Source: Tomocerus qinae
Taxonomy: Eukaryota > Arthropoda > Collembola > Entomobryomorpha > Tomoceridae
Direction of reading: 5' to 3'
Length of the DNA: 64,000 nucleotides
Assembly (NCBI GenBank): GCA_020055645.1
Contig: CM034546.1
Location: 56,048,001 to 56,112,000 of the forward strand
Shown here piece after piece: positions 29,561 through 61,805 of this stretch. Position 1 is the first letter of the stretch; every line of letters begins with the position of its first letter. The position numbers were made by a program, and so were the translations under genes. The notes below the pieces were generated by a model. That model was not told where the DNA came from, ran no database searches, and saw only the letters and a list, made by a program, of their open reading frames with translations.

Positions 29561-29568
29561 GTCAAGGT
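29561..29568 (+). repeat. 8-bp target duplication GTCAAGGT, left outer end
   Basis: GTCAAGGT abuts the terminal TAGGGAATCC of the left hAT copy. The identical octamer abuts the outer end of the right hAT copy at 61798-61805, 32 kb away, in the same orientation. Confidence 0.8.
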
Positions 29569-30624
29569 TAGGGAATCCAAAGCCGGTTTTACACCGGTTT
29601 TAAAACCGGTGAAAAACCGACTTTTTCAAAACCGGAAACCGGTTTTCATTTTCTGAAAACCGGTGTTGATAGAAGATATTTAACTATATCTGATATGCAG
29701 TTAAAATAGCAATAAAGCCTGAAAATTCGAAAAACCGAAATTGAGATACAATTATAAAGTCACATAAATTATATAAAATAGTAAAACGTTTATTAATAAT
29801 AACATGAAAATCCTTAATGTTTGGATACGTGCATTTATGTAGACTCCAGTAAAGCAAAACACAATAAACTAGTAATTACAATAACAGTAAAGTAATAGAA
29901 GGGCCACCACCAGTTCCGTTTAGAGTTTTTTACTTTAGAGTAACGCAATACAAAAATGTCAGTAAAGATTTTCTATCCTCGAAATATTTTTTGAAATAAA
30001 ATAAAATTTTTTAATTGGATTGAATCATTTTAAATCAATTTTCTCTAATTTTTAAAAATTTAGAAAGCATAAAAATATGAGAAAAATTTATTTGCTTTAA
30101 TGACGCTGTATTCTATGATGAGATATTCTATGATTGCATTAATTACCTTTGAGAATTATCGAAAACTGGATATGAGTTAGAAAAAACTACACAGATTTAA
30201 GTTAATACTCACAGAGCGTTTGTGGAGTGGCCAATAATTTTAGTACATAAATCTACATTTTGATTATTTGTCATGAGAATGACTCGATAGAATTGGTTTT
30301 GTAGAAGGGTCCCCTCTAATTGCAATACATTTAGTACTATCAGGACCCTTTAAACGATAAAACCAAAAACTACTTTTGAGATTTATATCTCATTTAAAAA
30401 TTAAAATAAAGTTAAAATGTTAAGTAAAAGTTAAAATTACACTTGATGAAATTGTGTTCTGTCCGTCTTTATCTGTAAACACATTAATTTGGTAGTATTA
30501 GCAATGAATTTTTAAAAACTAATTTTCGGTTTTTAAAACCGGTGAAAAACCGGTTTTAAAATTTGCAGAGAATGAAAAATCGATCAAAAATCCAAAGTCC
30601 ATTTAGTTATTCTTTATTATCTCT

Positions 30625-30671
30625 TTATAGAACGACATGTTTCAGAATATATTTATCGTCAGGTTCTGTAA
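30625..30671 (-). ncRNA. Hammerhead-ribozyme-like motif of the Penelope-like element
   Basis: On the minus strand the core boxes CTGACGA and GAAA are in order and are followed by CATGTC, giving a G-U-C cleavage site. Flanks TTACAGAAC and GTTCTATAA pair as stem I with one mismatch. Stem III is the minimal ACATGT palindrome, as described for Penelope-element ribozymes, which are thought to act as dimers. Stem II is A/T-only and weak. Only one copy was seen; full elements often carry two. Confidence 0.55.
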
Positions 30672-31144
30672 TATATAATAAAGTAAGATAGATTATATAA
30701 ACCAATACGAAATAACTCATATTTATAGTACAATCATATATATACTAAATAAATGTAATAGTTTTAAATGCAGCCATTGGAGTTTAATTACCTTTAAATT
30801 ATGAAATTTAAGAATAAATGTTATATATAGACCGGTACATTCTATTGCAATTGACATCGACCGGATTGCTATAACAATAGTTTATACAAATTAATTCAAT
30901 AATATTATAATTGCATAGTAAGTTTTTTATATCTAAATGTTAAAATGGTTAAAGTAGATCATATAAGTAATTACCTTTAATTAAAAATTGACAAATTATT
31001 TACATTGTGACAGAATTTTTGGTTGTGTCTGTTTATCGAGCGGAAATATTTGTATTTTCCCTACAGTAATGTTGTTTACAGGATTTTACTAAATAAGTAT
31101 TTGATCGAGTTTGAGACTTTTACATTAGTTTCAGATGACCCCAG

Positions 31145-33082
31145 TTATGTTTTAGGTAGTAACATTTTTAGATCGTTAATTTTCTGGTATGCTATATTTA
31201 TGATAAGATTATTTTTCCAATCATCATATCTTTCATCACTACAATTGTTTAGTGCGTTGTAAAATACTTCCTTTATAATATTCCCTAAATTACGTATATT
31301 ATCATAGAACGGAACTACTAAGTAAATTTTGTTGCTGACAATATCATTACATTCATTGATAGCTACATTATATTTAGATAGGATATTAGGGGTATGAATT
31401 CTTAGATTTTGTATCAGTAAATCTTTTTTGGGCTTCAGAATATCATCTCTAGAGACACCTTTTAATTTAATAATGTTATCATTAATAATATTTGAAGGAT
31501 ATCCTCTACATTTAAACTTATCTAACTCTTTAATTATTTCTAATTCAGCTTGTTCATTATTAGAGAAGCATTTCTTGATTCTAATTCCGGCTGAATATAG
31601 CAATGATTTTTTAACGTGAATAGGGTGATTAGACAGATAATGTAGATAAAGATGTTTACTCATTGGCTTTCTGTAAATGGTAGTTTCTATTTGGTTATTA
31701 TTTAAAGAGATAGCTAAATCTAGAAAATTGACAGTTTCATAGGACCATTCGTACGTAAATTTTAAAAATGAGTGTTGGAACAGTGTTTGAAGATATGTGT
31801 CTGGAGATGGTATATCAGTAACATCAACAATAAGCAGAATGTCGTCAATAAATCTGTTCATGCTAACAATTTCTTTCTTGTTTATAAATAAAGATTTGAT
31901 TTCTCTAGATACTGTAATATTACTTACAGATACACTAGAGTTTGACCCCATGGGAATTCCCTTATGTTGTACAAAGTAGTTGTTATTATACTCTATAAAG
32001 TTATAGTCCATACTCCAATCTAACATTTTCTTAAGCTGTAACATCGAAATATCAAATGGTAAGTTAATTAAATGCTTGTGTTCTGAAAAAGCTGCAAGAC
32101 ATTGTTGCTTACAAACGTTTATAGGTAAGTTCGGATAAAGTGATTCAATATCAGCAGTTACCAGCATATATTTCTTATCGACTTGTAATTTAATTTCGTT
32201 TAATCTAAGAATTAAGTGCGTTGTATCTATAATTACATCGGGCATTAAATTCATAACAGGTTGAAGTATCTTATCTAAAACTTTACTTAAATTTCTATTA
32301 CAACAGTTAACAGTGCTACTTATAGGTCTGCACATTGGAAAACTTTCATATTTCTTATGTATTTTAGGCAGACCGTAAAAGCTAGCTGGTTTGTATTTTA
32401 ATTCTAGAATACTTTTAATTTTTAATTCTGTAGGCATTGCATAGCTTTTCACCTCGTCAATGAGCGTTTCTGTTTTTGCAATGAAATGTGATTCTGTAGA
32501 TGGGAAATATGTATTAACATTTTCAAGCTGGGAAAATATTTCCTTATCGTAATCACATTTATACATAACAACGAGCCCTGCATTTTTATCTGCAGGTTTA
32601 ATAATCAACTTATTATTAATTACATAATTCTTAAAACAGTCAATAAATTCTTTGGATATTATATAGTTGTAATTACAATTGTGTATAACTTTTGTCACTA
32701 ATTCAGTATTTAATTTTACTGAGTCGCCTAGAACTATTTGTTCTACAGGTGAGTGGACTTTCACTTTCTTATCTTTCGTACATTGATACAATAGATTTTC
32801 AAAAACATTCAAGGTTTCATTTTTCTTATCGTGAAAATAAGCATTCCACCCTATTTTTCTTATCATTTCGGAGAAACACTGTTTTAGTTTTAAAAGATTA
32901 GGTGGGCTTGAAAAACAAAATTTTAGTCCTAGCCATAACATAGTTTTTACTTCAAATGGTAGTGACAAGTCTGTTAAATTGTGAATAAAATTAGGAGCCA
33001 TTTTAATTTCACAGAACAACTTATAGAGTTTGCGTTCTTTTTTACAGTTAGGTTTTTCTGGCAACTTAAAAATAGTTTGCAT
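31145..33082 (-). CDS. Penelope-type reverse transcriptase
   Basis: A 645-residue frame from an ATG. Family motifs in order: FYGLPKIHK and CRPISS upstream of the palm, motif A TADIESLYPNLP (catalytic Asp codon at 32150-32152), motif B KGIPMGSNSS, motif C FIDDI (Asp codons 31841-31846), then NFLDLAI and the YRKP...YLHYLSNHP block typical of Penelope elements. All catalytic residues are intact and no frameshift is present, so the copy is young or was recently active. The C terminus ends without a GIY-YIG endonuclease domain, unlike canonical Penelope; endonuclease-lacking groups (Athena, Coprina) are known. The frame is continuous with the upstream 33194-33955 frame except for one TAG. Confidence 0.85.
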   Translation of the reverse strand: MQTIFKLPEKPNCKKERKLYKLFCEIKMAPNFIHNLTDLSLPFEVKTMLWLGLKFCFSSPPNLLKLKQCFSEMIRKIGWNAYFHDKKNETLNVFENLLYQCTKDKKVKVHSPVEQIVLGDSVKLNTELVTKVIHNCNYNYIISKEFIDCFKNYVINNKLIIKPADKNAGLVVMYKCDYDKEIFSQLENVNTYFPSTESHFIAKTETLIDEVKSYAMPTELKIKSILELKYKPASFYGLPKIHKKYESFPMCRPISSTVNCCNRNLSKVLDKILQPVMNLMPDVIIDTTHLILRLNEIKLQVDKKYMLVTADIESLYPNLPINVCKQQCLAAFSEHKHLINLPFDISMLQLKKMLDWSMDYNFIEYNNNYFVQHKGIPMGSNSSVSVSNITVSREIKSLFINKKEIVSMNRFIDDILLIVDVTDIPSPDTYLQTLFQHSFLKFTYEWSYETVNFLDLAISLNNNQIETTIYRKPMSKHLYLHYLSNHPIHVKKSLLYSAGIRIKKCFSNNEQAELEIIKELDKFKCRGYPSNIINDNIIKLKGVSRDDILKPKKDLLIQNLRIHTPNILSKYNVAINECNDIVSNKIYLVVPFYDNIRNLGNIIKEVFYNALNNCSDERYDDWKNNLIINIAYQKINDLKMLLPKT

Positions 33083-33193
33083 ATTATAAAATTTACGGTT
33101 ACGATTAACTTTAACATTTTCAAGCTTAATGCTTTCGTCTAGATTATTTAAATTATACTTATAATGTAAATTTACTCCAATGGCTACATTATC

Positions 33194-33955
33194 CTATGAA
33201 AATGTGTTTAACACATCTTGGTTTTGAACATTTTGATTGTTAACATTGTTCAACCCTTTAGCTTTGACATTATTGAATGTACGTCTACCCCTATTGTTAT
33301 GGCCTCTCCAATTACTTTGGTCTCTACCAGTATTGCTATTTACTATATTATTGTGGTAATTATTTTTTCTATACTGTCCTCTCCTGTTATATGCACCTGT
33401 CCTTCTAGTGTATGTTTGCTTTTGATCGGATTTACTTTCCGGTTGTAGTTTTTTATCGGTTTTACTTTCTGTGTTAGAATTAAAGTTTTTATTATGAGAT
33501 GTAATTCCTTTTGAGCTCCCTTGTTGTATTTTGTGGCTATCTATCGTATTAGGGAAATTTCCGTTGGCAATTCTTCCATTCGTTTTTGAATTTTGTTCTG
33601 CATGCTGTGAAGCTACTTTTCCTTTATGTATAAAATCTAAAAAATCCTGTTTGACTATAGATCCGTCTAAAACAACCAGTCCCTTTTCTATTTTCTCGCA
33701 AATGGTATTCGCATATTTATTATAAGTTGCAGGTATGGAATCTGGTCTATCCTTTCGCCAAAACGGTAAACTTCGTGTTATTTTAGTTGTGCGATCGTTC
33801 CAATCTATTATTTTAACATTAAAGACTTTGGGGAATTCTAATCTAGCTTTGTAGTAGCTGACAGAAAATATATGGCAATATAAATCCTGAAAATCTACTG
33901 CATTAGATTTGTTTTCCTTTATAAATTCGCAAATGATATTATTAATTTTAATCAA
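33194..33955 (-). CDS. Basic, Asn/Gly/Arg-rich N-terminal domain of the Penelope-like element
   Basis: At least 253 residues ending in ...DVLNTFS and TAG (33194-33196). The first 100 residues look globular; the remainder is low-complexity and basic (RRTGAYNRRGQYRKNN, NWRGHNNRGRR), suggesting nucleic-acid binding. The frame has no ATG at its start and stays open into the neighbouring hAT sequence, so the 5' end of the element is missing. It lies in the same frame as the reverse transcriptase, separated by TAG plus 37 open codons. I do not recognise a named domain. Confidence 0.6.
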   Translation of the reverse strand: MIKINNIICEFIKENKSNAVDFQDLYCHIFSVSYYKARLEFPKVFNVKIIDWNDRTTKITRSLPFWRKDRPDSIPATYNKYANTICEKIEKGLVVLDGSIVKQDFLDFIHKGKVASQHAEQNSKTNGRIANGNFPNTIDSHKIQQGSSKGITSHNKNFNSNTESKTDKKLQPESKSDQKQTYTRRTGAYNRRGQYRKNNYHNNIVNSNTGRDQSNWRGHNNRGRRTFNNVKAKGLNNVNNQNVQNQDVLNTFS

Positions 33956-34607
33956 TAAATACTGTTTTTGAACCGAAACAACCGAAAACCGGTTTCAAAA
34001 TTTGGGTCCGGTTTTGGATTCCCTATGTTCCACGGATGCATCTTTTAGGCACATCTGAATCCTCGGTGATATTAACCTTCTTTTTTGTATGCAACTGCAT
34101 TCTCCCCCACCACCACCACAAGTAACAGCAACCCCTAAACGCAGCTGTAAGCCTTATATAAATGTACATGTATATAACTAAGCCATTGTTTGTGGTGAGA
34201 TTCTCCGAATTTTATATACCTAAGCTAAGCGGTAAGAAGCTTTCAGCTGTTTTTTCCTCCCATTATGCATTCCACTCTCAACTGTGTGTCTATACGTTGA
34301 GATTGAATAGGCAGTTCTTTTGGAACTTATGACTGAATGCACTCCTTCGTTCTTAAATTATAAATACTTTGACATTAAATCGTGGTACACAATTATTTTA
34401 TAAAAAATAACGATTCTTTTATTTGGTAATTATTATTCAGCATAATTTTCTTCTTTTTCAGACTAAGTTTTGGTGCCGACATTCCTAGAATTTTATAGAC
34501 CAAAATAAAGGGGAGTGACGAAGTAACAACATTGACGTTCGTGAAAACAGTAGCAAAAAGGGAGTTTTTTCTATTCTCAAAAAATAGTCCGTAATTTGGC
34601 CGTAAAG

Positions 34608-37130
34608 ATGACTATAAACCAATTTTACATTGAGCTGAAAAATCCAATTCGTTCATTTTTCCCCGGGCAATCTATCACTGGACGAATAATTGTCGAATCA
34701 TTTGGAGATACAAACATTCAAGGTAGTTCATAGTGAAATATTTTTAACAACACATTTTCAAATAAACTTTGATACATTTATTTTTTATGTTACAATGTAC
34801 AAGGAATTAGGATTGACTTTATCGGCAAAGCTTCTGTTCACTGGACAGAGAGCCACACTAGAACCACTGGCACAGGTGACGATCAACGTTCAGAAACCGT
34901 CACAGACACCTACTCATCTTCAGAGCAGTATTTCCATTGCAAAGTTAATGTTGCAGGTTATCACAATATTCATGAAATAATTTAAATAAGGTAAATTGTC
35001 GCTAAATAATCTTCATGTAGTATGTAACGGTATGACTGTCAATGCTGGGAAACTAAACTAAGTAATTATTAAGTACATTATATCAGTCGTGATCGTGACT
35101 CAGTTTTTATTTATTTCCTAGTTTGATATATTTTAATGCAAATTAAATTTTTGTAGGTTTTTACAAGAACTCTTTACAAACTGGATCATAATTAGATATT
35201 ATGATTTTTATTGGATCTAACTAAAATTGAAGACTAAAATAATACAATGTTATAAAATAAAAATCTTGATTTGCACTTTAAAATTAAAAATATTTGGAAG
35301 ATATTTACGCGTCCAAATATCCTATAGTAATATTTAATAATAATAAAACGTTTTACATTATAATGAATGATTTTTGTATTACAAGATACTATGCCACTGG
35401 TAAATTTTTAAGTATTACGCGATTTAAACACTAATATCTATTTCAAATTTTCAGGCGGTCACGAGCCGGTTACGAATGGCCACCATGCCTATCCATTTGC
35501 GTTTACATTGCCTTCACCATTGCCCACTTCATTTAATGGACCCCATGGAAAGATTTACTATTACATGGAAGCAAAACTAAAACAATCGTGGAAACTGGAC
35601 CGAAAAGCAATGGTACCATTTACTGTCAATTCGGTTGTAGATCTGAATAGGTATGAACATACACAATTGCCAGCGGAACTTAGGAAACAGAAAAACATTT
35701 GCTGTTTGTGCTGCCGAAGTGGCCCGGTTGGGTTTGTGCTCAAAATGGGAAGAAAGGGCTACGTCCCTGGGGAATATATTGACATTGAGTCAGAGATTTA
35801 TAATCAGAGCACAAGAAAAGTTCAAAAAATTGACCTCAAACTTTATCAGGTGAGTACAAATCATAAATATAACCTGATTGTTTCAATTATTTGCTGACCC
35901 AAAAATACGACAATTAAGTAAATGAAAACTTTATGTATTTAATTAAATCCAATTAATGTTATAGACAACTCACTACCGTGCGACAACAAAAACCAGGTCT
36001 GAGACTAACATTTTATGCGTGGCTACAGGACCCTGTGTTGAGAGAGGCGATAGTGAAGCATGGGTTGGACGGGTATTACGGATTCCACCTGTACCACCTT
36101 CAACGATGGGGGAATGCCAGATCATAGATGTAGAGTATTCGTTAAAGGTTAATTAAAATACTTTTAAAAACAATTTACGATTATTAATGCCAATTAAGTA
36201 ATTATCTAAAAGAATACTTAATTCCTGTTGAAAACATTTGCGACATAATTAACTCTGTTAAATCTAAGGAAGACACAAACAAATTCCAATATTTAAATTA
36301 ATGTTTTAACTCCACTATTCGCATTCCCTATAGCTATCGTCTAATTAAACTGGTAGCTACTTAGTAATTACTAGCCGTTGTAGCAGTTACTGTACTCAAA
36401 ATATAGAAAAGGCTTAAAATACGATAACTCATTACTTTGAGGCTAAACTTTATATTGGACATCATGATCCTCGGCTATATGAAATTCTCTAATTAATAAT
36501 ACTGCAGGTGGAAATGCATCTATCTGGTCCTTCTGTAAATTTAAAAGGGGACATATCATTGATCATTGGGACGATTCCTCTGCGAACAACTTTCTCAGGG
36601 ATTCAATCTCAAGCAAATGAAAACCAAATGCAGGGAAACCAATCCAATTACACCGGTCAATATTCTTCTAGCGATGGCCAGCCACCTACTTATAAAAATG
36701 CTGCAGTAGGTTATCCACTTCCGTCTGCGCCTGGTTTTGAAGACTATCCAGATTTACGTAAGCCAATATTAAATCACTATTATTACTAGAATCTTGTCTC
36801 AGAAAGCAAAACCAAAAATTATCCTTCCATTTTCAACTGATACAATTAATGAAGGTAATTAACCTTCTGAACACAATTCACAAGGGTTTTAGTTATGCAT
36901 CTTAAATTAACATCCTAGTAGACTAACCTCTACCATAAATTAGTCCAAGTCACTATTATAATTATTTTTAAAAATATTTAGCTCCACCGACCTACGCCGA
37001 AGCAATGTCAGTTCAGCCTGCGGGAGCTGCAGAAGGAAATATTGCAAGACCAGGAAATGCGACTGCAAACGACGAAAATTCTACTGCCATGAATTACGAA
37101 CCAAAATATATCATGTATGGGTGGACATAG
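34608..37130 (+). CDS. Alpha-arrestin (ARRDC2/3/4-like), copy 1
   Basis: Membrane-trafficking adaptor that links receptors to NEDD4-family ubiquitin ligases. Exons 34608-34722, 34804-34956, 35455-35849, 35965-36147, 36508-36757 and 36982-37130 join in phase to 414 aa. The start is conserved in all three copies (MTINQFYIEL). Features match ARRDC proteins: N-terminal arrestin fold ending in the NICCLCCRSGP segment, then the C-terminal arrestin domain beginning KMGRKGYVPGEYIDI, the PPVPPSTM stretch and LIIGTIPLRT. Two PPxY motifs bind WW domains: PPTY at 341-344 and PPTY at 367-370. The conserved tail YEPKY...YGWT is intact. A Pao/BEL element begins 128 bp after the stop and probably interrupts the 3' UTR. 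Confidence 0.92.
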
Positions 37131-37253
37131 ATTACTACCTATGACACAGTGGAGTAAAACCAACGTGGCAACGATTGTTATTGTAACTATTGTGTAACGC
37201 TGGAGGTATAAGAGTAAATGATACTAAAGTAGGTATATGGCATAGGTGGAAAT

Positions 37254-37258
37254 GTAAA
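37254..37258 (+). repeat. 5-bp target duplication GTAAA, left of Pao/BEL element
   Basis: GTAAA directly precedes the left LTR and recurs directly after the right LTR at 45979-45983. Five base pairs is the usual target duplication for Pao/BEL elements. Confidence 0.85.
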
Positions 37259-38673
37259 TGTGATGGCAAATTGATAGTGAATCTGCACCCAGCACCAATA
37301 TGCATTTGGAGTCCTATTTGCATCTGGAGTCCTATTTGCATCTGGAGTCCTATTTGCATCTGGAGTCCAATTTGCATCTAGATATCAATTCTCGTCTTTA
37401 CCCTCATCAACATGTTGTAATGGCAAATTAAGTGCAAGCCCTTTTAATTACCAACGGCCAAGGGTATTTAGTCAATTGTATTATGTAGTATTATGCTATG
37501 TAGAATGTCAATGTATTTGTATGTGAAATAATATGTAATACGTAGTATTTATCTGTATCTGGAAAATTGTCTCCAATGGAATTGGAAGGGATCTCTGAAA
37601 GTTATTTTTAGACAAGAATAAGTTCCAAATTGAATTATATTGATTTTAGGGGAAACTAATGGACACACGTGTAAATGGCCTACACGTGTGTGTAGACATT
37701 GGTCGGAGAAAATCTCACCTCATCTTTGATTGTCCAATGACCGGAAAATTCTGTTTCTGCGTATTACGCAAGTTGATATTGATCAAATTTTCTCTATGTA
37801 AAAAGAGTAGGGAGAAAGTGTGTGGAAATACATACTATGTTTTAGCTTACACTAAAGCCGTGCGCTAACGACTTGTTTCTATGTTTTTGCCTAAACAGTG
37901 TAGACTTAGGAAGATCTTTTGAAGACTTTGTTGTGGGCGGGGTTTATTTAGGAAAACCAGACAGCAGCCACTATTTCGGGACTGATTTGCTACTTTGTAT
38001 TTGTCTTCCGTAATAGACGGGTAGGTTCTGGTATTTGCCTCATATTATATAAGGGGACCAGGTCGGGCAAATACTGGTAGTAAACAGTCAGTTTGAAAGT
38101 ATTAATTTAGAAAATAAGAAGTTTAATTTGAAACCCACTCCTAAGAAAATTGTCGAATTGTGTTCGCAATTATTGAGAGGGTTTCCAATCATGGAGTAGG
38201 GATGCAAACTACGTATAGGTAGTAGTGAATTGAGTTACAATTAATTATCGACATTATATTGTGTTGATATTGGAGATATTGTTGTATATGTAGAATAATT
38301 TGGGAGAATTGTAACGTAACGCAACGTAAGAACTGCAACGGAGATAGAGTTTGTGCGTGTGTGTATTGTATTGTAACAGGGCGTGAAAAGTACCTATTTA
38401 CTACTTTTCACCACCGCTACGCATAACACTCTTACGGAGATACACATGTTACACATTTTGAATATCCCATTAAATGTTATTGAAAACGACTTATGTGCAA
38501 TAAAAAATATTCTCCTTCTGTTCGATATTAAACTGTTGTGAATTCGAGACTAATTTGATTTAACTGGGGAACGTGAGACGTTCTGTTTAAAATTCCCTTG
38601 TTTTCATTGGAGGACAAGGGTGGTCCTTCGAAGTTATTTGAAGCAACCCGGGGACTAGCTAAAACCGAAAACA
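37259..38673 (+). repeat. Left LTR of Pao/BEL element
   Basis: Contains a four-unit 18-bp minisatellite (GGAGTCCTATTTGCATCT, 37308-37380) near its start, a TATATAA box at 38046-38052 with a TCAGTT initiator-like sequence at 38088-38093, and an AATAAA polyadenylation signal at 38499-38504. These define probable U3, R and U5 parts. Confidence 0.9.
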
Positions 38674-38675
38674 GC

Positions 38676-38693
38676 TGGTCCTTCGAGCCGGAT
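38676..38693 (+). other. Primer-binding site, tRNA-Tyr
   Basis: TGGTCCTTCGAGCCGGAT begins two bases after the left LTR and is complementary to the 3' end of an arthropod tRNA-Tyr (…GGCTCGAAGGA plus CCA). The match covers 18 bases. Confidence 0.85.
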
Positions 38694-38754
38694 CTATAAG
38701 TCCTTGGAAGAAAGTACACTTTGAATTTGCCAATTGTGTGACTTAAGGCCTGAG

Positions 38755-41700
38755 ATGAATATTCTAGAGAATTTGATGGCCGCGAAGAAAAGCCGCCGAT
38801 TGAGGGGACAAGGGCCTGAATTTGGCCTATTACCCCCACCAACTAGAAGGAGAGCTCCATCAGTTCCACATTCAACTCCATTTGTCCCGGCTAGACCAAG
38901 AATCCCAAGTCCGGCTGAGACTAGTATTGATTTGGCAGAGATTTTTAATACTAGGAGGGATGATCGAGACGATTCATCAGGGTGGGATGATGGAGATGAG
39001 AGAGAAGAAGGGGAAATAACGTTAAGCTCCGAGAAAGAAGAAGGAGAAATTACGTCTGTCTCCGCTAGAGAATCTCCACGACGGAGAACTGAAAGAGAAG
39101 CAGTTGTAGACAGAGACGGAGATTCATCCCACTTTTCATCTCAACTTGGGAGAATACAACAACGCATAGAATTTATGCATGAAAGCAGGACTGTGGATGC
39201 TACACTCACGGAAGTGCGAGCTGCATTGCTTAAGGACATAGAGAGAGAAAGATTATCTCGTGAGAAAATGAATGCAGATCTAGCTAAAATTGAAGAATTA
39301 ATAGCAAGAAATAATTTACTGGCGACAAATCTGAGTGGTGCAGGTGTGTCAAATGGAGACCCTGTGACCAATAATGCGGAAAATCCAGATGGAGGAACCC
39401 CAATAGAGACTGAGGACAACTCCAAGGGAGCCCCCGCAAAAGAAACTACGGATTGTTCGAATCAAGAGCCCGCCCAGCCTGATAATGAGACGAATGATGA
39501 GTCTCGACAAGATAACCTGGGAGGCCCAAGTAGAGACAAAGGAGACGAAACTTGCGAAGGCGATGGCGACAAGGATCATATAGGAACTTTGGGCGCCCGA
39601 GCTATTATGCCGAGTTATTTTCCGTACAGTTTGTCAGCAGAAGAGCCAACTAAGAGGCAGTTGCAAGCCAGGAAAACAATTGGAAAAGATCTTCCTTTCT
39701 TTGCAGGAGAGCCAGAAGAGTGGTTAGCATTCATTAGTCAATTTAGAATGTCTACAGCAATGTGTGGATATAGCAACGCAGAAAACTTGTACAGGCTACA
39801 GAAGTGCTTGAAAGGAATAGCCAGGGAGTCTGTGCATGCGTTGTTAGTAACTCCTGAAAATGTGTCTAAAATTGTTAGCATGTTAGAAAGGAGATTCGGA
39901 CGACCGGAAGTGATTATTGAGAGAATCACAAATAACGTTCGACAGATAACAGGAGTAAGAGAAGACAAGCCCTCTACTCTTGTGCAGTTTGGTACTAAAG
40001 TGGAAAATCTTGTAGTCACTATTGAGAATTTAGAAAGAAGAGAATATTTGTCAAATCCCATGCTTCTCAAGGAACTGTTGAATAAGTTGCCAGCGTCCAT
40101 GAAGATTAACTGGGCTGAGAGGATGGAGAGGGACTACAAGAAAGTACCAAACTTAAGAGACTTCTCAGATTGGATGCAGGAAAAGGCCACGGCAGCTCTG
40201 CTGATTGGAGAGACTGAGTTCGCCCTACCTGATAAGAAAAATAATGAGAAGAAATTTGCATTTGGTGGCAGAAATGCTAAAAAGGAAACTACATTTACTA
40301 CTACTGAAAAGAATGTAGTGAGTGAAAGTCGCAAATGTTACTACTGTGAAGATGGTTCACATATTGTTAGCAAATGCAAAGATTACACCAAGCTTTCAGT
40401 CGATGATAGATGGAAGTGGGCTAAACAAAAGAGAAGATGTTTTCTTTGTTTGGGAAAAGATCATTCCGCATTGACTTGTAATACGCAAAGGAAATGTGGA
40501 AAGAATGATTGTGATAGGAACCATCACTCGTCTCTTCACTGGATAAGAAGAGATGGAAATGTAAACCGAGAAGAAACCTGTAATGCTGTAGGGTCTATAG
40601 TGAGAAATGGCACTAATGAGGTGTTATTGAGAGTGATTCCTGTTACGTTAATTGGGCCAACAGGAAAGATAGACACTTATGCATTACTAGACGACTGCTC
40701 TACTACAACGCTTATAGAGCAAGACCTGATTGATAGATTGGGAATTGAGGGGAAAAGAGAACCTCTCAAACTGAGAATTGTGAAATCTGTCAAGAATATT
40801 CCAGATTCGCGAGTTGTTACAGTTAGTATCAAGAGTCGCCAAGGTGGTGAAATTTATGTGATGAAGAGAGTAAGAACAGTTCGCGGCTTAGACTTGCCAA
40901 CACAAAGTGTAGATGTTAGTGAGTTGAAGAGAAAATCGCCTCACCTTCGGCGGAGAGGGGTGTTTGCGTTTCACAATGCAACTCCGCAAATACTAATTGG
41001 ACAGGATAATATTCATCTGATAATACCAAGAGAAATTCGCGAGGGGAAAGAGAATGAGCCCATTTTATCGAGGACTAAATTAGGGTGGGTCATTCATGGC
41101 AATACTAGAGCAAGGAATGGAAAATCAAGAGAGGTGTGTTTACACTCTACTGTGTTTGCCGCTGATGAAGAACTACACAAGTTAGTGAAGGAGTCTTTCA
41201 AGACAGAGACCTTTGGAGTGCAAGTACCAAAGGTGAAATTGAAAGGCAAAGAGGAAATGCAAGCCGAAGAGACAATGAAAGCCACAACAAAGAAAGTTGA
41301 AGACAGATGGGAAACAGGCTTGCTTTGGAGAGACAAAAATATTGAGTTACCAGACAGTAGGTCGATGGCTTACAGTCGATTGAGAAATATCGAAAGAAAA
41401 ATCGATAGGGACTCTGAATTCGGACAATTATATGAGAGCAAAATTCAGGAATACGTGCAGAAGGGATATGCACGCAAATTAGATACAGAAGAGGCAAATG
41501 TTCGCGATGGAAGAACTTGGTATTTACCTCATTTTGGAGTAACTAACCCACATAAACCGGGAAAAATACGTTTGGTATTTGATGCAGCCGCTAAAGTGGA
41601 AAATGTAAGTCTTAATGACATGCTGTTAGTTGGTCCGGATCTATACAATTCTTTGGGAGGCATGTTGCTGCGTTTTAGACAAGGAAGAATAGCCTTTAGT

Positions 41701-45978: not shown

Positions 45979-45983
45979 GTAAA

Positions 45984-47488
45984 TATTACTTAATACCATG
46001 TATTTGACGTTCTTGACAAATAGACTGACAAACTGTAATATTATTAAAGTAAATGAGGCAAGGACTGTGTATTCTATCCCCTTCCCTGAATTAGAAAATC
46101 AAAGTATTTTAATTTACTGACGTTAACACTTTTGATAAACTGAGGCTTTCATCAAATAAAACTGAGAATTAAGATAGGCGTATTGTCATGGCAACCGCCA
46201 ACTAGAATTTTAATACAAAAGTTCAGAATCGTGCATGGAAGTTATTTCAGCTACTATATAGGAGAGGAAAGACAATTTAACACAGTTCGTTCACTGTAAT
46301 AGACACCAGACCAAAAATATAAATTTTTCCCTCTATGAATTAAATACCATTTCTACGTGTATGTATCCCGAAAACCCGCCAACCATATCTATAAAAATGT
46401 AATTATCTGACCATGTTATGTTAATTAACATCTCAGTGTGTTTTTGTACTTAAGGATAACCATTTACGAATAGACTGTTTAATATAATATACCGAGAAGT
46501 ATCATAAATATTATTGTAATTATGCGGTATTGTAATAACACAGAATATTTTAGAAAATAGTTTATACGAGGCTGTAGTATACGATCTTACAAGTTACAAC
46601 CCATTGAGTATATTATATCTCATTGAACATTTAAGTATTTCATACGTTTTACAAGTTGCTGTAAAATGCAGGGATATGTAGGTCACAAGGCCGTATAATA
46701 AAAAACTATATCCTAAAATGAATATATTTAAGAATCGTTGTATTCAATGATCCTTACTAAACTAAAGTCATAGTTGAATAAACATTACGTATGAAATCTA
46801 TTGACTGTATCCAGTCTGCCATAGTGAAACATTATTATTGGAATCGTTAAATATTGATACTGGTTCCAATCATATTTGATTAAGGTGCAGACGCTGTTTA
46901 CAAGCATGTCATCCATAGCAGTATAAAGATTAAAACATCAGATGTAAAAATACTTTTATTATAAGAGATGCTACTTACTGTTACTTTTTAGCGTTCGGGT
47001 TTCACTCTGTTAATATTTCTGCAAAAGCTAACGCGACATGGATTGTACCATTTATACCACTGTATGAGTAAATGGAGTCTTATGAAATTGTTGTGAAGAA
47101 GATAAGACTGAATGTAAATATCAGATAAACTGATAAATAGACATAGATAATTCCGTTGTTAACAAAAGCAAATGCAATGCTTTATCTCATACATGATTCA
47201 TGATGTATTTGTATTATAATATGATATATTATGTCATTCGAGATAAATTATCTAGGCACAGATATATGTTTTACCTATATGCAGTATAAATCAGCCATTA
47301 CAAAAGTACATAATATTCTACGAGACAATAATATTTTGTCCTACTGGCAAAGCAACATTCTTTGTCATCGTTCAATGGTTGAGATTTTCGTTCTCTAGTA
47401 ATTCAGCAGAAACTGGGTGATCCGAATCGGCAGTGTCACTAAACAGTATTATAGTCAAGATTATTTTCGTTTCCAAAAATAGCGAAAA
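45984..47488. other. Region between the Pao/BEL element and arrestin copy 2
   Basis: About 1.5 kb that includes the displaced downstream flank of arrestin copy 1 and the upstream region of copy 2. From about 46560 onwards it resembles the region upstream of copy 3 (55740 onwards), e.g. TTTTACAAGTTGCTGTAAA versus TTTTGCAAGTTGCTTTAAA. Just before the ATG both copies share CGGCAGT-TCACTAAACA. No other gene was recognised. Confidence 0.6.
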
Positions 47489-49649
47489 ATGACCATAAAT
47501 CAATTTTACATTGAACTGGATAATCCTATTCGCTCCTTCTTTCCAGGTCAATCTGTGTCTGGAAGACTGATTGTTGAATCAGTATTAGATTCAAGGATTG
47601 AAGGTTAGAGAATATTATAATCTTTCGGTAAATTTTAAAAGGAAATCTAAAGCTAATTTTTATTTTCGTGTCAATTAGGTATCACAGTAGTCTTTGCCGG
47701 AAAAGCAGATGTTCGCTGGACAGAAAGACGCAGCGTTTCTACTGGCAGAGGTAAAAATACAACAACCGTGACACAAGTCTACACATCCAATGAAGAATAT
47801 TTTAACTGCCAAATCAATATTGCAGGTATGCCTATAAATATATTTCATTTTAATATAATTTTTTTAAAATTCAATATAATAAATAATAATAAACAATTTT
47901 AACATCAGATAGCCTATTTACATTTTATGCATCAATTATTGATCTTGACTGGTTGCAGACCATAAAATTTAAAAATAAACAATAATTTTGTAGGTGGCCA
48001 CGAAGCCATTCCGAATGGTCGCCATGCATTTCCATTCCAGTTTACACTTCCATCTGAATTACCTACCTCCTTCAATGGAATACATGGAAAGATTTATTAC
48101 TATGTTGAAGCTATACTAAAACGATCGTGGAAACTTGATCGTAAAGCAATGGTACCATTTACTGTGAACACAATTGTAGATTTGAATAGACATGAACAAG
48201 TGCCAGTAGAACTCAGAAAGCAAAAAAGTATCTGCTGCTTTTGTTGCCGAAGTGGTCCAGTTGGATATGTCCTCAAAATGGGAAGACAGGGCTACGTCCC
48301 TGGCGAATATATTGACATTGAATCTGAGATATTTAATCAAAGCACAAGAAAAGTTAATCATATTGAACTCACACTTTGTCAGGTAGGTACCAATAGATAA
48401 ATTTACTTATATTTTCACAAAAATATGTTTTAAAACGAGAGGCATTAAAAATGCCTATCAGCCGATATCAATTCACAAGCCTTATGTTCGAAGAAATTAG
48501 ACTATCTCCTTTTCTATTTTAAGGAAAGCATTTGAGCATAAATTTTTCCAATCAATAAAGACTGATAAATGCCAATTCTTTCAGGAACCTTCTCAAATTT
48601 AAATCAAACTAAAATTAAGGTTGTTATCACCACTTAGTCTGGAATAGTCTCCAATTCTTAACTAAATGACATTCTAATATATGAAGAACTATTGCTGTTT
48701 GAGTATATAGACAACTACCTATCGAGCCACAACAAAATCCAGGTCAGATACTAAATTGTTATGCATAGCAAGAGGACCGTGTGTTGAAAGAGGACAGAGT
48801 GAAGCATGGGTTGGGAAAGTATTACAGATACCGCCCGTGCCACCTTCAACTATGGGGAAATGCCAAATAATTGATATCCAATATTCGTTAATGGTAAATT
48901 AAAACTGGGTCAAAAAACAGTCAAAACATATTATATTACCTGTACAATTGTTGAAATAATATTTTCTGATTCATAAAGGTTGAGGTTGACCTATCTGGCC
49001 CTGCTTTAAATTTAAAAGGGGACACAAGATTGATCATTGGGACGATTCCTCTGAGGACAACTTTCTCCGGATTTCAATCTCAAGCATATGAAAATCAAAT
49101 GCAAGGAAAATCTAATTTCAATGGCCAATATCCTAGTAGCAATTCCCAGCCACCAACTATGAATAAAACAGCAACTGTTGGTTATCCACTTCCCTTTGCC
49201 CCTGGTTTTGAAGACTATCCTGATTTACGTAAGCCAATATTAAATCACTATTATTACTGGAATATTGTTTAAGAATGTCCCGTTTACAAGCATCCCGCAT
49301 TTAGTCAAATTTTGTGAGACTTCAACATCCACAGTGCATGACAAGTTGTTTATTGGGGGCACAAGACATTTCATAGTTTCTGTCTATGTAGCTGATCACA
49401 TAAAAAAGTGTCTCCAGCACTTTCCGCTACAATCTCACAAACTTTGTGCGGTGCTTTAATATGAAGCATTTTGTTTCTATTTAATATGTAAGCTGAAATC
49501 ACCTCGTATCTTGTAATTTGTAAAACATTTCAGCACCGCCGACCTATGCTGAGGCTATAGCTGGTCAGACTACAGGGGCTTCTGATGTAAACATTGAAGG
49601 TCAGGAAAATGTGGCCTTTAGTGAAGAAAATTCCACGGCAATGGCTTAA
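47489..49649 (+). CDS. Alpha-arrestin (ARRDC-like), copy 2, with shortened tail
   Basis: Exons 47489-47603, 47679-47825, 47994-48382, 48711-48893, 48979-49228 and 49534-49649 join in phase to 399 aa. Intron positions and phases match copies 1 and 3 exactly. The arrestin C-domain start GYVPGEYIDI and LIIGTIPLRT are conserved. The first PPxY of copy 1 is here PPTM, leaving one motif, PPTY at 363-366. A TAA replaces the conserved Tyr codon (TAC in both other copies) at 49647-49649, so the tail YEPKY...YGWTNP is lost even though it is still readable in the DNA after the stop. The gene otherwise looks functional. AATAAA follows at 49738. Confidence 0.9.
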
Positions 49650-51403: not shown

Positions 51404-51411
51404 GTACCAAT

Positions 51412-51574: not shown

Positions 51575-52301
51575 GTACCAATAACATTGCTACGTGTGAC
51601 ATTTGTCACACATAGCAGTTATTGCTCCCTTACATAACAGTCGTTCCAAAAACTTTTAAAATCTATCGGCCAGTTTGACAGGGAACCGGATGTCATAGAC
51701 CCTTGGGATTTTTTGTAATTGTCACAAATGCGTTTTTTGCTTATATTTTTAAATTGAAGTTATTTGACATTCATTTAAGACAGGAAAACAATTTTACAAA
51801 CAAAAATTGTCGTACTTTTCCACGTCTATACATGACTTAGTCTGCCTAACAACTATACTGCATAATACACTATGCAGACCTATATTAGCAATCTTTCTGT
51901 CCAGCACATATACTAATGTCATGCTCACCAAATGACTGACATGTGACCGTAAGCTGGCCAATGTCAATGTCTAAATCGGCAGTCGTTTGGCAGACTATGT
52001 TATGTTGTACTGTTGATTTTACATGTTATGTAAGGAAGGGTTAACTGTGTCTGGATTTGTGATTGTATTTAAAAATTTAATATTCATTACAATAAATATA
52101 TGTATAACCAAATGCAATAATTAAGCACTATTGACTATTAGGAGGAGATTCTTTCTTGGCTACATACAACAACAATTGGGAACAGGATGGATTTTATCAG
52201 AAAGATTTTCCATTGCGTTCCTCTGAATGAAATGAAAAAGATGAAGAATTTGAGACTCGGCCTTAAAAAGGAAGAAAGGCACTGCAGGTTATCCTAAGGA
52301 G

Positions 52302-53089
52302 TTGAAGGTGCAGGCTACAGTGCCTGAGGAGTCTGGAGCCTCAGAAAAACCCGCGCCCTTGCATGAGGAGCCAGCGTTTTCTGAGAACCTGGACAACTCA
52401 GGTACTGAAACTACGGCTGAAGGATGGTGGACTGCTTACAATACTGAAAATATAATTTCTATCGATTGTGAAATGGTAACTCCTGTCGAAGATTCATCGA
52501 AGATGAAAATTGCTACTGTAGCCATTGCCAACATTAAGAAAGAAATAATTTTTGTATTTAGATTAGTTATTTGCTCTATTATACATATACATTGATAAAT
52601 TAATAATAACTAAAACTGTTAATTTTATTGATTTCATTTCAGGCAACAGTAAATAGCTTTGTAGTAAATCCATTCACAAAAGCCGTGAAAGGTTTTACCC
52701 CGACATCTTTATTGCATGGAGAAAATTTTGAGACTGTTATTAAAAAAGTGAGGGAAACATTGGAAGACAAACTCATCACAGGTTTTCTGTGCATGGATTT
52801 GGACATTTGTGAGTATGATGTTTTTGAATTGTCGAACCATTTTAAAACGTTTTATGGACAATATACCAAATAAGGTGAAAAGGTTTTACAATCTATAAAT
52901 CTGCGTTCTGTGTACTATCATTATACTGGCATCAACATACAAGACGGCATTCATTCTGCAAATAAAGATGCTATGGCTACAATGGATCTATTCATTATGT
53001 ATATGAATAACATTAAACGTACAAATAAAATGATCCCTGGAAGTGCAAGAGTCTTTACTCGAAATGTGGTATTTAAAGAGGTGTTGTAA
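52302..53089 (+). pseudogene. REXO4-like DEDDh exonuclease, probable pseudogene
   Basis: Two exon-like blocks, 52302-52553 and 52643-53089, are joined by a 89-bp intron with GT/AG borders in phase. The first carries IISIDCEMV, the exonuclease motif I (DxE) of the REXO4/ISG20 group of 3'-5' exonucleases. The second has NPFTKAVKGFTPTSLLHG and, near its end, GIHSANKDAMATMDLF, which matches the motif III region (HS..DA.ATM.L). A TAA at 52871-52873 interrupts the frame between motif II and III and the frame reopens beyond it up to 53087. The region of motif II (usually GH..x.D) reads GFLCMDLD and lacks the usual His. The gene start is unclear. Most likely a decayed copy. Confidence 0.65.
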
Positions 53090-53099
53090 TATCTATTAT

Positions 53100-54038: not shown

Positions 54039-54972
54039 TCAAGCTAAATGTCTGGGCTCTAGATCTGGTAGGAGGGCAGGCAATGAACTACTATCACAGT
54101 CAACAACAAGTTTTTTGCACAAATGAAAGGCAACACTCGTACAAGAAGTATCTCTAAGGTTATATTTTGTGTAAAGGTTGGGCCAGAAACACAGTACCAG
54201 GCAATTTTGTTTCCCGTCCTCATCATCGGGCTCCCCTGGTTCAAAATATAAATTAGAAATTGGTTTTCCATTTGCCATCCAAGTATATATTCCGTCTTCG
54301 AAGGAATCCGACCCTGACGTCCAAACACAATCTGGTTCTCCTGTTCCTGATATTCCTGTGGACAGAAGTTATAAAAACATTGTCAATACGATACTTTATC
54401 TAAAATATCCACCGTACTTAAATACAGTAATTAAAATTTTCCACCTGAACGTTTAAGAAATCCATTTACAAAGCGGAATTCTCGTTGCGAGTCAATGGAA
54501 ATCAATTCAGCATTGTCCTCTTTACAAAGTTTGTATGCTTCGATCCATGTCACCTAATAATACAATTTTAATTCTTTAGAATATTTAAATTACGAAATTT
54601 TATTTATATTAGCAAATGTTACAAACTTACGATGTTTTCAAAGTAAACTGTGTAGATATGTTGATTAAAGGTAAAATTTTCTCCAGGTGTGCGAAATGTC
54701 TCCTCATATCTAAAGACAAATAAAGTTAAAATATTTACGCCACATTTCTACAACAACAAAATTTTCAATTTTTTAATTATAGTTAAATAAATTATAATAT
54801 GAAGTTATTTTACATATGAAAACCGTTTTTCTTTCAATAAATTAATTTACAATTCATATAATCTTACTTACACGTTTGCATTGACATCCGTATCGTTAAT
54901 TTCGCCGGAAATAAATTTGGAAAATGATAATATTATTGTAATAATGAAAGCCAATTTGTCAAAACTCCCCAT
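54039..54972 (-). CDS. Secreted C-type lectin-domain protein
   Basis: Four exons, 54872-54972, 54631-54709, 54445-54553 and 54039-54355, join in phase to 201 aa. Exon 1 is a signal peptide (MGSFDKLAFIITIILSF...). The C-type lectin fold follows: TWIEAYKLCKEDNAELISI (first conserved Cys and helix), TWMANGKPIS, the calcium-site loop FEPGEPDDED, then QNCLVL and TSCTSVAFHLCKK with the closing cysteines. The usual EPN/QPD triplet is not clear (GEPDDED instead), and the WND motif is replaced by YNLRD, so calcium-dependent sugar binding is doubtful. A short tail of about 25 residues follows the domain. Such lectins act in immunity or coagulation in arthropods; the role here is unknown. Confidence 0.85.
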
Positions 54973-56123: not shown

Positions 56124-56131
56124 GTTCTGTC

Positions 56132-57399: not shown

Positions 57400-57407
57400 G
57401 TTCTGTC

Positions 57408-58015
57408 TGTCTGGCAACAGAATAAAAACCTTATTATATTGTAATAGACAGAGGAGATATAACTGTCACTTGTATAATATAGTTTCTATTTTGCTGTACA
57501 AGTTAAAGAGATATTGCATTGAAATTACATCACTATAATATCGAGACCATTGTTAGGGACACGACAATAATATAATCATTTTGTATAAGCAGAACATCTG
57601 GCTGAATGTAAATACAGGTAAACTGATATAAAGGGCATTGATAACCAAACTCCCTTAACCAGATGACAGAAATAGAAAAGTCAGTTTTATTATTCGCTTA
57701 TGACTTGGTATATTCCATTATTATCAAAAGCAAACGCAATGATTTATCTCATGCACGCAGTATGATGTATGGTATTCGTGATGAAATAGGTACATATCTA
57801 TGTACCTTTTAACAAAACCGTTTAAATGGGACATCAGCAATGTATTAATTTATGAGATAATATTTTATAACACTGAGAATGCAAATATTTCTCATCGTTT
57901 CATGGTTGTGATTTTCATTCTTTACTGACGAAAGCTGCACAACAGAGTGATTTAAATCGGCAGTATCACTAAACACTGTGAAGATCACTTTTAATTCCAA
58001 AAAAATTTTAAAAAA
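57408..58015. promoter_or_regulatory. Proximal upstream region of arrestin copy 3
   Basis: Shares blocks with the region upstream of copy 2, including GGCTGAATGTAAATA-type sequence, CGCAATGATTTATCTCAT, and CGGCAGTATCACTAAACA directly before the coding start. The shared TCACTAAA may hold the transcription start. No TATA box is evident. Confidence 0.4.
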
Positions 58016-60455
58016 ATGACCATAAATCAATTTTACATTGAGCTGGACAATCCAATCCGTTCATTCTTTCCAGGCCAATCTGTGTCTGGAAGAGTGATTG
58101 TTGAATCAGTACAAGATACAAGAATTGAAGGTTAGAAAATGAACAAAATCTTTTAGTAAACTTTAATAGCAAAACTAATTTTTCCTCTTCTGTTAATGAC
58201 AGGTATCGTCATAGTTTTTGCCGGTAAGGCAGCTGTGCGTTGGACAGAAAGTCACACTGTGGCTACTGGTGTAGGTAAACAAAACCAAACAAGAACAGAG
58301 ATACGAGTCTACACAGCTAATGAAGAATATTTTAACTGCCAAATCAACGTTGCAGGTAAAACAATAAATTTTATTTAAGTATAAAATAATCTTAATATCA
58401 AATAACATAATATTTGTATTTTATGAAAAAATTATTGATCTCGACTGGTTGTCAGAACTGAAACAGAAAAATGGAATTTGAGCTGTAAGAACTGTAAACA
58501 TCAAATATATACTAAGAGATCCTAAGCTATTCATAAATGAGACAAAATAATTTGCAGGTGGCCACGAAGCCATACCAAACGGTCGCCATGCATTTCCATT
58601 CCAATTTACACTTCCACCTGAATTACCTACGTCATTCAATGGGATTCATGGAAAGATTTACTACTATATTGAAGCTATATTAAAACGATCGTGGAAACTG
58701 GATCGTAAGGCAATGGTGCCTTTTACTGTGAACACAATTATAGATTTGAATAGACAAGATCTAGCACCAGTAGAACTCAGAAAGCAAAAAAGCATCTGCT
58801 GCTTGTGTTGCCGAAGTGGTCCAGTTGGATTTGTCCTCAAAATGGGAAGACAGGGTTACGTCCCTGGCGAATATATTGACATTGAATCAGAGATATTTAA
58901 TCAAAGCACAAGAAAGGTTAACAAAGTTGAACTCACACTTTGTCAGGTCAGTACAAATGGAAAACTTTTTTATTTCATTTATTTGTAGTGCATAACTTTT
59001 ATCGTGCGAATTTAATTAGTCCATGTACCTAAAGTATTTTTCAGTTTGCATGAGAATCTTTTCAAACCTATACAAACTATACCTATATTCTCATAAAAAA
59101 TATTTTTTTTAAACGAGATGCATTAAAAATGTCTATGAGTCTATATCAATCCATGCTCGAAGAAATAAAGACTACTTTCTTTTCTATTAAGTATTTGAGC
59201 ATAAATTTTTCCAGGACGTGTCAATAAAGACTGATAAATACAAATTCTTTCATGAGTCTTCTCAAATTAAAACTAAATTAAAATTAAGCTTGTTATCACC
59301 ACTTAGTTTGAAATAATCTTCAATTCTAAACTAAATGACAATCTAATATACGAAGAACTATTTATTGCTGTTTGAATATAGACAACTACCTATCGAGCCA
59401 CAACAAAATCCAGGTCGGATACTAAATTATTATGCGTAGCAAGAGGACCTTGTGTTGAAAGAGGACAGAGTGAAGCATGGGTTGGGAAAGTGTTACAGAT
59501 ACCGCCCGTGCCACCTTCAACTATGGGAAAATGTCAGATAATTGATATCCAATATTCGTTAATGGTAAATTAAAACTGAGTCAACAGCGATAAAATAACC
59601 AAAACATAAATTGCCTGCACAATTGTTGATATAATATTTTTCCGTTTCAGGGCATGAAAAAGGCAAAAAGCTACCTTTTTGCCTTTTTGGTTGCCTTTTT
59701 GCCTAGCAAAATCAGCAAAAAGGTAGCTTTTTGCCTTTTTCCTTTTTGGTTATTTTTAATTAAATGAAATAAATTGCAATTTCTATGTTAAATGGTATAA
59801 AAGTCATAGAAAATGGAAATATTATTGTGTAATGTGAAAAGGAGATTTGTAGCTACTTCAAATTCATTTATAAATCAGCTCGATGATATGTAGAGAATGT
59901 CATAGGAAAAAGGCAACCTTTTTCATGCCCTGTTCCGTTTCATTAAGGTTGAGGTAGATCTATCTGGCCCTGCTGTAAATTTAAAAGGGGACACACGATT
60001 GATCATTGGGACGATTCCTCTGAGAACAACTTTCTCCGGATTTCAATCTCAAGCATATGAAAACCAAATGCGGGTACACCAATCCAATTTCCCTGATCAA
60101 TGTTCTAGTAACAATGAACAGCCACCTAATATGAATAAAAACGCTGCAGCTGGTAATCCACTTCCCTCTGCGCCTGGTTTTGAAGGCTATCCTGATTTAC
60201 GTAAGCCGTGCATGGATTACTCAAAATGTAGCATTTACTATTTATATGTAAGTTAAACCCAGTCCTTAGTCCTTATCATGTTAATTTCTAAACATTTTAG
60301 CACCTCCGACCTATGCTGAGGCCATAGGGGGCCAGACTACAAAATCTTTGGAAGAAAACATAGAAGGACAGGAAAACATGGCTTTTGATGAAGAAAATTC
60401 CACGGCGATGACTTACGAACCAAAATACATCACTTATGGGTGGACAAATCCATAA
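58016..60455 (+). CDS. Alpha-arrestin (ARRDC-like), copy 3
   Basis: Exons 58016-58130, 58203-58355, 58558-58946, 59382-59564, 59948-60200 and 60301-60455 join in phase to 415 aa, with the same architecture as copies 1 and 2. It is closest to copy 2 in sequence, including in introns. The arrestin domains are complete (KQKSICCLCCRSGP, GYVPGEYIDI, LIIGTIPLRT). The first PPxY position reads PPNM, so a single motif remains, PPTY at 366-369. The tail ends YEPKY...YGWTNP, which is the full-length form. Intron 4 carries a 285-bp hAT MITE whose right end lies 15 bp from the splice acceptor. AATAAA follows at 60508. Confidence 0.92.
59648..59932. mobile_element. 285-bp hAT-type MITE in intron 4 of arrestin copy 3
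   Basis: Ends CAGGGCATGAAAAAGG and CCTTTTTCATGCCCTG are perfect 16-base inverted repeats. Perfect 8-bp duplications TTCCGTTT flank it (59640-59647, 59933-59940). Near its left end it carries a strong hairpin built from AAAAAGGTAGC/GCTACCTTTTT arms, which also appears at 17268-17330. The corresponding intron of copy 2 is an empty site. Confidence 0.92.
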
Positions 60456-60785
60456 GCAACAGCCAAATTGACAGCATTTGATATAGATTAACATTACAAT
60501 TTAGTCTAATAAATTATTATTGATATGCAATATTTAAATTAGTTATACAACATCCGATAGTTATAATGAAATCTATATAAGGCTTAAAAATTGTGTTTGA
60601 ATAAACTTGAAGCACAACAGCTGCTACGAAGCTTTGAGGTTGTACATTCATACCTTTGATTTGTTTAATTGTTAACTTTAATTGTAGTAGAGGCACCGAG
60701 TTGTTACTTTTATAGAACCCCACCCACTTGTTATGATCTATATAGATTTTTAGTATTTAACTACTCATACAAATAATACTCATTT
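60456..60785. other. 3' flank of arrestin copy 3
   Basis: 330 bp holding the 3' UTR and polyadenylation signal (60508-60513). It ends where the right boundary hAT copy begins. Nothing else was recognised. Confidence 0.6.
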
Positions 60786-61797
60786 CACCGGTTTTAAAAC
60801 CGGTGAAAAACCGAATTTTTCAAAACCGGAAACCGGTTTTCATTTTCTGAAAACCGGTGTTGATAGAAGATTTTTAACTATATCTGATATGCAGTTAAAA
60901 TGGCAATAAAGCCTGAAAATTAAAAAACCGAAATAGAGATACAATTATAAATTCACATAAATTATATAAAATAGTAAAACGTTTATTAATAATAACATGA
61001 AAATCCTAATGTTTGGATACGTGCAATTATGTAGACTCCAGTAAAGTAAAACACAATAAACTAGTATTTACAATAACAGTAATGTAATAGAAGGGCAATC
61101 ACCAGCAGTTCCGTTTAGAGTTTTTTTACTTTTGAGTAACGCAATACAAAAATGTCAGTAAAGATTTTCTATCCTCGATATATTTTTTGAAATAAAATAA
61201 AATTTGTTAATTAGATTGAATCATTTTAAATCAATTTTCTCTAATTTTCAAAAATTTAGAAAGCATAAAAATATGAGAAAAATTTATTTGCTTCAATGAC
61301 GCTGCATTCTATGATGGGATATTCTATGATTGCATTGATTACCTTTGAGAATTATCGAAAACTGGATATGAGTTGGAAAAAACTTACTACACGGATTTAA
61401 GTAAAAACTCTCAGCGTTTTTGGAGTGGCCAATAATTTTAGTACATAAATTTACAACATTTTGATTATTTCTCATGAGAATGACTCGATAGAATTGGTTT
61501 TGTAGAAGGGTCCCCTCCAATTGCAATACATTTAGTAACATAACTACTTTTGAGATTTATATCTCATTTAAAAATTAAAATTAAATTAAAATGTTAAGTA
61601 AAAGTTAAAATTCCACTTGGTGAAATTGTGTTCTGTCTGTCTTTGTCTGCAAACACATTAATTTGGTAGTATTAGCATGGAATTTTTAAAAATAAATTTT
61701 CGGTTTTTAAAACCGGTGAAAACCCGGTTTTAAAAGTTCAAAAATCGAAAAACCCGAAAACCGGTTTTAAAATTTGGGTCCGGTTTTGGATTCCCTA
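60786..61797 (+). mobile_element. Non-autonomous hAT-type element, right copy, left end truncated
   Basis: Colinear with the left boundary copy (29569-34025) in the same orientation, but begins at CACCGGTTTTAAAACCGG and so lacks the first 23 or so bases, including TAGGGAATCC. The right end GGATTCCCTA is intact and is followed by GTCAAGGT, the octamer that also precedes the left copy. It carries no Penelope insertion and no transposase frame. Confidence 0.8.
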
Positions 61798-61805
61798 GTC
61801 AAGGT
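61798..61805 (+). repeat. 8-bp target duplication GTCAAGGT, right outer end
   Basis: Directly follows GGATTCCCTA of the right hAT copy and is identical to the octamer at 29561-29568. Confidence 0.8.

Follow-up and report, generated by a model that had tools for sequence, protein, structure and literature searches.

A 32-kb block carrying three alpha-arrestin genes (positions 29561 to 61805 of a 64,000-nucleotide stretch of Tomocerus qinae DNA, contig CM034546.1, positions 56,048,001 to 56,112,000, hereafter the window) is bounded by two copies of one inverted-end element in direct orientation. The sequence shows the end structure of the copies, the duplication of a single octamer at their outer ends, and inner flanks that do not match. 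The arrangement is tentatively read, with something just short of an even chance of being right, as a composite insertion made by alternative transposition (the macrotransposon or the composite-insertion route). A transposase, a donor locus and movement of the block in one step may be supposed behind it.

The outer octamer and the element ends

Both boundaries were checked letter by letter. The left octamer GTCAAGGT (29561-29568, plus strand, read directly in the sequence) lies directly 5' of TAGGGAATCC, and at the other boundary GGATTCCCTA lies directly 5' of the right octamer GTCAAGGT (61798-61805, plus strand, likewise read directly); these would be the two halves of a common target duplication. 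An earlier note had claimed an exact octamer adjoining both outer termini in the same orientation, and this held in 8 of 8 letters and at the coordinates given there. The sequence ahead of the left octamer ends ...TTTATGTCAAC, and the right flank after the octamer at 61798-61805 reads ATTGAAAATCCC. The copies are in direct orientation, with the left end of one and the complementary right end of the other outermost, and all three intact ends start with TAGGG, which is of the YARNG form. The inner flank of the left copy (34026-34033, plus strand) is TGTTCCAC and differs from the outer octamer; the octamer comparison bore out the earlier claim that the inner flanks are unmatched. The target duplication joins the outer ends of the two copies only, and neither copy has a duplication of its own. 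Candidate donor-junction sequences beside the arrestin cluster are TGTTCCAC or ...AATACTCATTT.

Five flanking octamers were compared, two of them alternatives for the truncated end. The outer pair was the only match (0 mismatches); the other nine forward comparisons gave 5-8 mismatches and the ten reverse-complement comparisons 5-7. Identity of two random octamers, calculated from the window's own octamers, has a probability of 4.5e-5, or a chance of about 9e-4 if all 20 comparisons are counted. The odds proposed earlier were about 1 in 65,000. GTCAAGGT was found three times on one strand of the window (the third at 23669) and 0 times on the other, with 0.66 expected per strand. For a control, 8-bp repeats around 10-bp inverted ends were scanned for in the window and in 60 dinucleotide shuffles. 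Four pairs were found in the window, against a mean of 0.25 in the shuffles (14 of the 60 had one or more), and the same scan limited to YARNG ends gave two in the window (the outer pair and a 285-bp MITE) against none in the 60 shuffles. Two of the four window pairs have a common A+T-rich left end at 19400 and right ends at corresponding sites in both copies. Given the octamer chance of 4.5e-5 and the 0/60 shuffles with YARNG ends, the outer duplication is taken as real, and a single insertion event is very likely the source of both outer ends.

Two independent insertions meeting the same octamer, by chance or by target preference, would have the extra GTCAAGGT at 23669 in their favour. They are set back by the probability per comparison given above, and no target preference is visible in these few sites, where a neighbouring MITE of another family used TTCCGTTT and TGTTCCAC adjoins the left copy on its inner side; this origin is considered the most improbable of those weighed. 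Whether the right octamer belongs to some other repeat was also examined: CAAGGTATTGAAAATC is unique in the window as an exact string, and three other matches with 2-3 mismatches were found, against a mean of 1.69 expected in all.

Two observations were made beyond the right boundary. The right flank at 61806-61890 opens CCCGGGTTTTT-rich and resembles a fragment of a different inverted-repeat element. The gene at 62017-62292 (minus strand) is a truncated paralogue of the gene at 26958-27608 and matches only the first 87 of its 216 residues; its missing half was sought to the left of 29561 by tblastn, as a test for a gene split by the block, and no match was found in the window, which is evidence neither way.

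The two copies and the reverse transcriptase

The left copy (29569-34025; sequence and self-comparison) is a putative hAT/P-type element with both 10-bp ends intact (TAGGGAATCC ... GGATTCCCTA). The right copy (60783-61797; self-comparison and alignment) is truncated at its inner end, keeps its outer end GGATTCCCTA intact and is without the reverse-transcriptase segment. YARNG ends are a hAT motif, and an 8-bp duplication goes with hAT-type ends. YARNG is also the P-superfamily consensus (PMC2820524). The hAT label is suggested solely by the end motif and the length of the duplication. A non-autonomous hAT element had been proposed earlier; the YARNG ends agree with it, are shared with the P superfamily (PMC2820524), and neither of the two open frames scanned in the left copy matched a Pfam transposase family.

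Of the 1003 columns in an alignment of the copies, 45 are gapped, and the 958 ungapped ones include 44 substitutions (4.6%; 19 transitions and 25 transversions). The left copy is longer by 3.39 kb (30580-33970), with a reverse-transcriptase frame within; in the right copy both end regions of the element are present and the middle is absent. That these are two copies of the same element, as claimed before, was upheld, the reverse transcriptase in the left copy having gone unreported. An assembly or phasing error that joined two haplotypes or two repeat copies could have arisen at the repeats that form both boundaries. It is held to be unlikely: the window is without N, and a duplicated or collapsed single copy is argued against because the copies differ by 4.6% and 3.39 kb.

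The left end of the element carries a near-perfect 46-bp palindrome of CCGGTTTT repeats (29579-29624; minus-strand self-match of 91%, and fold). In the right copy homology starts at 60783, about 20 bp including the end motif are missing, and the copy breaks off at a 20-bp palindrome (60786-60805); in the left copy this palindrome forms the core of the 46-bp near-palindrome. This break point fits a second account of the block, which is a real possibility, if a less than probable one. One element of about 1 kb would have inserted alone with GTCAAGGT on both sides and been split later by repair or recombination that brought the arrestins inside; a break in the left terminal palindrome would have been repaired via a second, longer copy beside the arrestin cluster, by template copying or by integration of a circle that carried both the element and the cluster. 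This would account for the octamer common to the two outer boundaries and for the foreign sequence on the inner side of the left copy, and the truncation of the right copy would need no extra event. The price is that another copy must stand next to an arrestin cluster at a distant site, and that a long tract must be copied or a circle formed. In the circle form, TGTTCCAC could remain beside the right copy; its nearest further occurrences, at 53757 and 63500, lie on the opposite strand, and the truncation may have removed it. Recombination or circle integration had been named earlier as giving a similar arrangement, and it does fit the same ends and the missing inner end.

Within the longer left copy, ORF2 (31145-33193, minus strand, 682 aa) is a predicted Penelope/telomerase-type reverse transcriptase without a GIY-YIG endonuclease (RVT_1, 2.1e-7; relatives, tree, predicted model and fold match). 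ORF1 (33194-33994, minus strand, called as an open frame) has 266 codons, no methionine and a basic N/R-rich end, and stops at a TAG directly before ORF2, in the same frame. A search for ORF1 relatives gave 0 matches at E<=1 among 137 candidates and no Pfam match. With ORF2 as protein query, 7996 candidates were scored and 63 relatives obtained, the best at 51% identity. GIY-YIG is absent from the window's ORF2 and from 28/28 of its closest relatives (precomputed Pfam annotation; some of these proteins are partial), and is present in 6 of the other 35; 23 of the 28 closest relatives, aligned with ORF2, have C-termini within about 20 residues of each other. In a quick tree of the 63 relatives and the window (SH-aLRT only, no bootstrap, many remote rows long-branched), ORF2 and its 28 closest relatives formed one clade (SH-aLRT 100), whose sister is a GIY-YIG-bearing Penelope-type protein (SH-aLRT 96). 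An AlphaFold model of ORF2 had a mean pLDDT of 87.4, and its first 14 fold matches were telomerase reverse transcriptases at low TM scores (0.31-0.41, by query length). A profile search of PDB sequences with ORF2 gave no reverse transcriptase and three weak unrelated matches. On the strength of RVT_1, the absence of GIY-YIG in the relatives, the tree and the telomerase fold matches, the left copy is assigned a Penelope/telomerase-type reverse transcriptase without its own endonuclease, which raises the question of how a lineage without GIY-YIG inserts.

Athena and Coprina are endonuclease-deficient Penelope-like elements, and ORF2 resembles elements of this kind in being a reverse transcriptase of Penelope/telomerase type that has no GIY-YIG. 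The bdelloid rotifer members are described as telomere-associated (PMC3846280), whereas ORF2 sits in an inverted-end element between genes.

Two contig collections, of viruses and prokaryotes, were also scanned. The reverse-transcriptase alignment scan gave pattern matches and no relative in viral_contigs (0/42 stretches) or genome_contigs (0/69), and neither the left outer end with its octamer nor an 18-bp element end had an exact match in viral_contigs; given the make-up of the collections, these results say little on animals.

The segment present in the left copy only (30580-33970, minus strand, seen as an alignment gap against the right copy) may be a nested retroelement or the original coding part of the element. 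A ten-base stretch of the right copy (61743-61752) has counterparts on either side of the segment, at 30570-30579 and 33971-33980; the overlap resembles a target duplication, yet it is A-rich and imperfect. A 5'-truncated nested retroelement is mildly favoured on account of this junction overlap and the lack of a methionine in ORF1. The coding-part alternative is kept alive because the ORF1 frame begins 31 bases inside the end of the element, and it is faintly helped by the finding that 5/6 of the first relatives sit on contigs of 3.7-4.3 kb, with many further ones on contigs of 2-3 kb.

A hammerhead ribozyme is a mark of Penelope-like elements. Between 29300 and 34300 at E<=5, six matches were obtained, all below gathering scores and all to other families, and at gathering scores the whole window gave 0. 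Self-comparison revealed no direct repeat (pseudo-LTR) framing ORF2; the ends are inverted. Mobilisation of the block by a reverse transcriptase, like the Penelope of Adineta vaga moving an intron-bearing gene, would make use of both the Penelope-type reverse transcriptase and the terminal palindrome of the left copy. It is nevertheless rated as quite improbable, since the ends are inverted and of the YARNG form and not pLTRs, no direct repeat frames ORF2, the right copy has both end regions and no middle, no hammerhead was matched, and GIY-YIG is found neither in ORF2 nor in the 28 closest relatives.

The proposed composite insertion and known systems

In the proposed composite insertion, another element somewhere in the genome would provide a transposase of hAT (or P) type, and this enzyme would bring together the left end of the full-length copy and the right end of the truncated one, both of them intact. 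All that lay between the paired ends would be inserted at one site, with GTCAAGGT as its only 8-bp duplication. The copies would have been linked and have moved as a macrotransposon, or else reversed ends would have transposed during replication and copied their flanks, as in the maize Composite Insertion route; a BEL/Pao-like element would enter afterwards. In favour of composite insertion are an exact duplication of the length known for hAT at both outer termini and none at the inner ends, the shuffle control for YARNG ends, and a MITE in the cargo that is built along broadly the same lines and has an 8-bp duplication too, TTCCGTTT. Against it, macrotransposition by itself leaves the loss of the right copy's inner end unexplained, and the frames scanned gave no transposase match. 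Movement of the block as a macrotransposon or composite insertion is slightly preferred to the splitting of a small element, and it has the advantage that no long copied tract is needed. Of the macrotransposon claimed in the earlier note, the derivation of the outer ends from one insertion was sustained, and movement of the whole block is one of two readings that fit the same ends.

Large transposons of Drosophila bounded by Foldback elements carry several host genes; they share with the present block an animal host and several host genes enclosed by two copies of a repeat element, and differ from it in the type of element. In maize, Composite Insertions carry one Ac that is intact and another that is fractured, and the Ac termini have 8-bp duplications (PMC4270019); a 28-kb Ac macrotransposon was excised (PMC9910405), and a Ds/Ac macrotransposon mobilised up to 100 kb (PMC3260210). 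Maize Ac/Ds and the present block both have two linked elements, one of them fractured, on either side of a multi-kb block, and at the outer ends there are 8-bp duplications (PMC4270019, PMC9910405, PMC3260210); the inner end missing from the right copy has its parallel in the fractured Ac (PMC4270019). Maize differs in having known progenitor alleles and excision products; here the host is an animal, the cargo bears genes, and no transposase was seen.

The Penelope element Pen3a of the rotifer Adineta vaga is a precedent closer in host than maize Ac/Ds: an NRPS gene, with its introns kept, was moved between pLTRs and is flanked by an 8-bp duplication, and an empty allele supports the move (PMC3846280). 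Likenesses to the present block are an animal host gene with introns between two direct copies, the 8-bp duplication and a terminal palindrome; the differences are the pLTRs and the empty allele there and the YARNG inverted ends here (PMC3846280).

No multi-gene macrotransposon of an animal was found in the titles and abstract openings of the literature searched, among which subscription journals were few; by title, the literature under 'macrotransposon' is on plants, apart from a review of fish elements that names the word only in its reference list. If an empty site exists, the block would be a case of a cut-and-paste type transposon pair moving a host gene cluster, introns included, in an animal, and it would give animals a way of relocating gene clusters that the papers cited here describe for maize. 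The wider proposal that an endonuclease-less Penelope-type lineage rides inside hAT/P-type inverted-end elements, and that such a pair carried a multi-gene animal locus as a 32-kb mobile unit, is offered as a long shot.

Cargo genes and nested insertions

The three alpha-arrestin genes claimed earlier for the cargo were confirmed by domains and paralogue comparison. They are located on the plus strand at 34604-36804 (gene 1; Arrestin_N and Arrestin_C, exons by paralogue comparison), 47328-49275 (gene 2; paralogue comparison and domain match) and 57857-60207 (gene 3; domain match and paralogue comparison). The arrestin protein search gave four matches at 31-34% identity, and over one compared segment arrestins 2 and 3 are 8.9% different, against 4.6% for the element copies. 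The C-type lectin in the same claim is backed by one exon (54039-54368, minus strand) that matched mosGCTL-1 among PDB sequences (E 8.6e-9) and no Pfam family. The exonuclease pseudogene found no such backing: one exonuclease-like frame was tested (52254-52595) and gave no Pfam or PDB match.

A BEL/Pao-like LTR element (37259-45978, plus strand; self-comparison and inspection) is flanked by a 5-bp repeat, GTAAA (37254-45983 overall), and was classed as BEL/Pao-like by inspection of its ORF. Its LTRs are identical over 1417 matched bases, and it is therefore regarded as a recent, later insertion into the cargo. It makes up 8.7 kb of the cargo, which without it measures 18.0 kb.

The 285-bp hAT-type MITE recovered by the inverted-end scan (59640-59940) lies in an intron of arrestin 3, with ends CAGGGCATGAAAAAGG and duplication TTCCGTTT. 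It has palindromic subterminal repeats, its family differs from that of the large element, and it serves as a positive control for the scan. The paralogous intron of arrestin 2 represents its empty site, with one related octamer, TTCTGATT; from this intron without the MITE it follows that 8-bp-duplicating insertions did occur in this genome, at other target letters.
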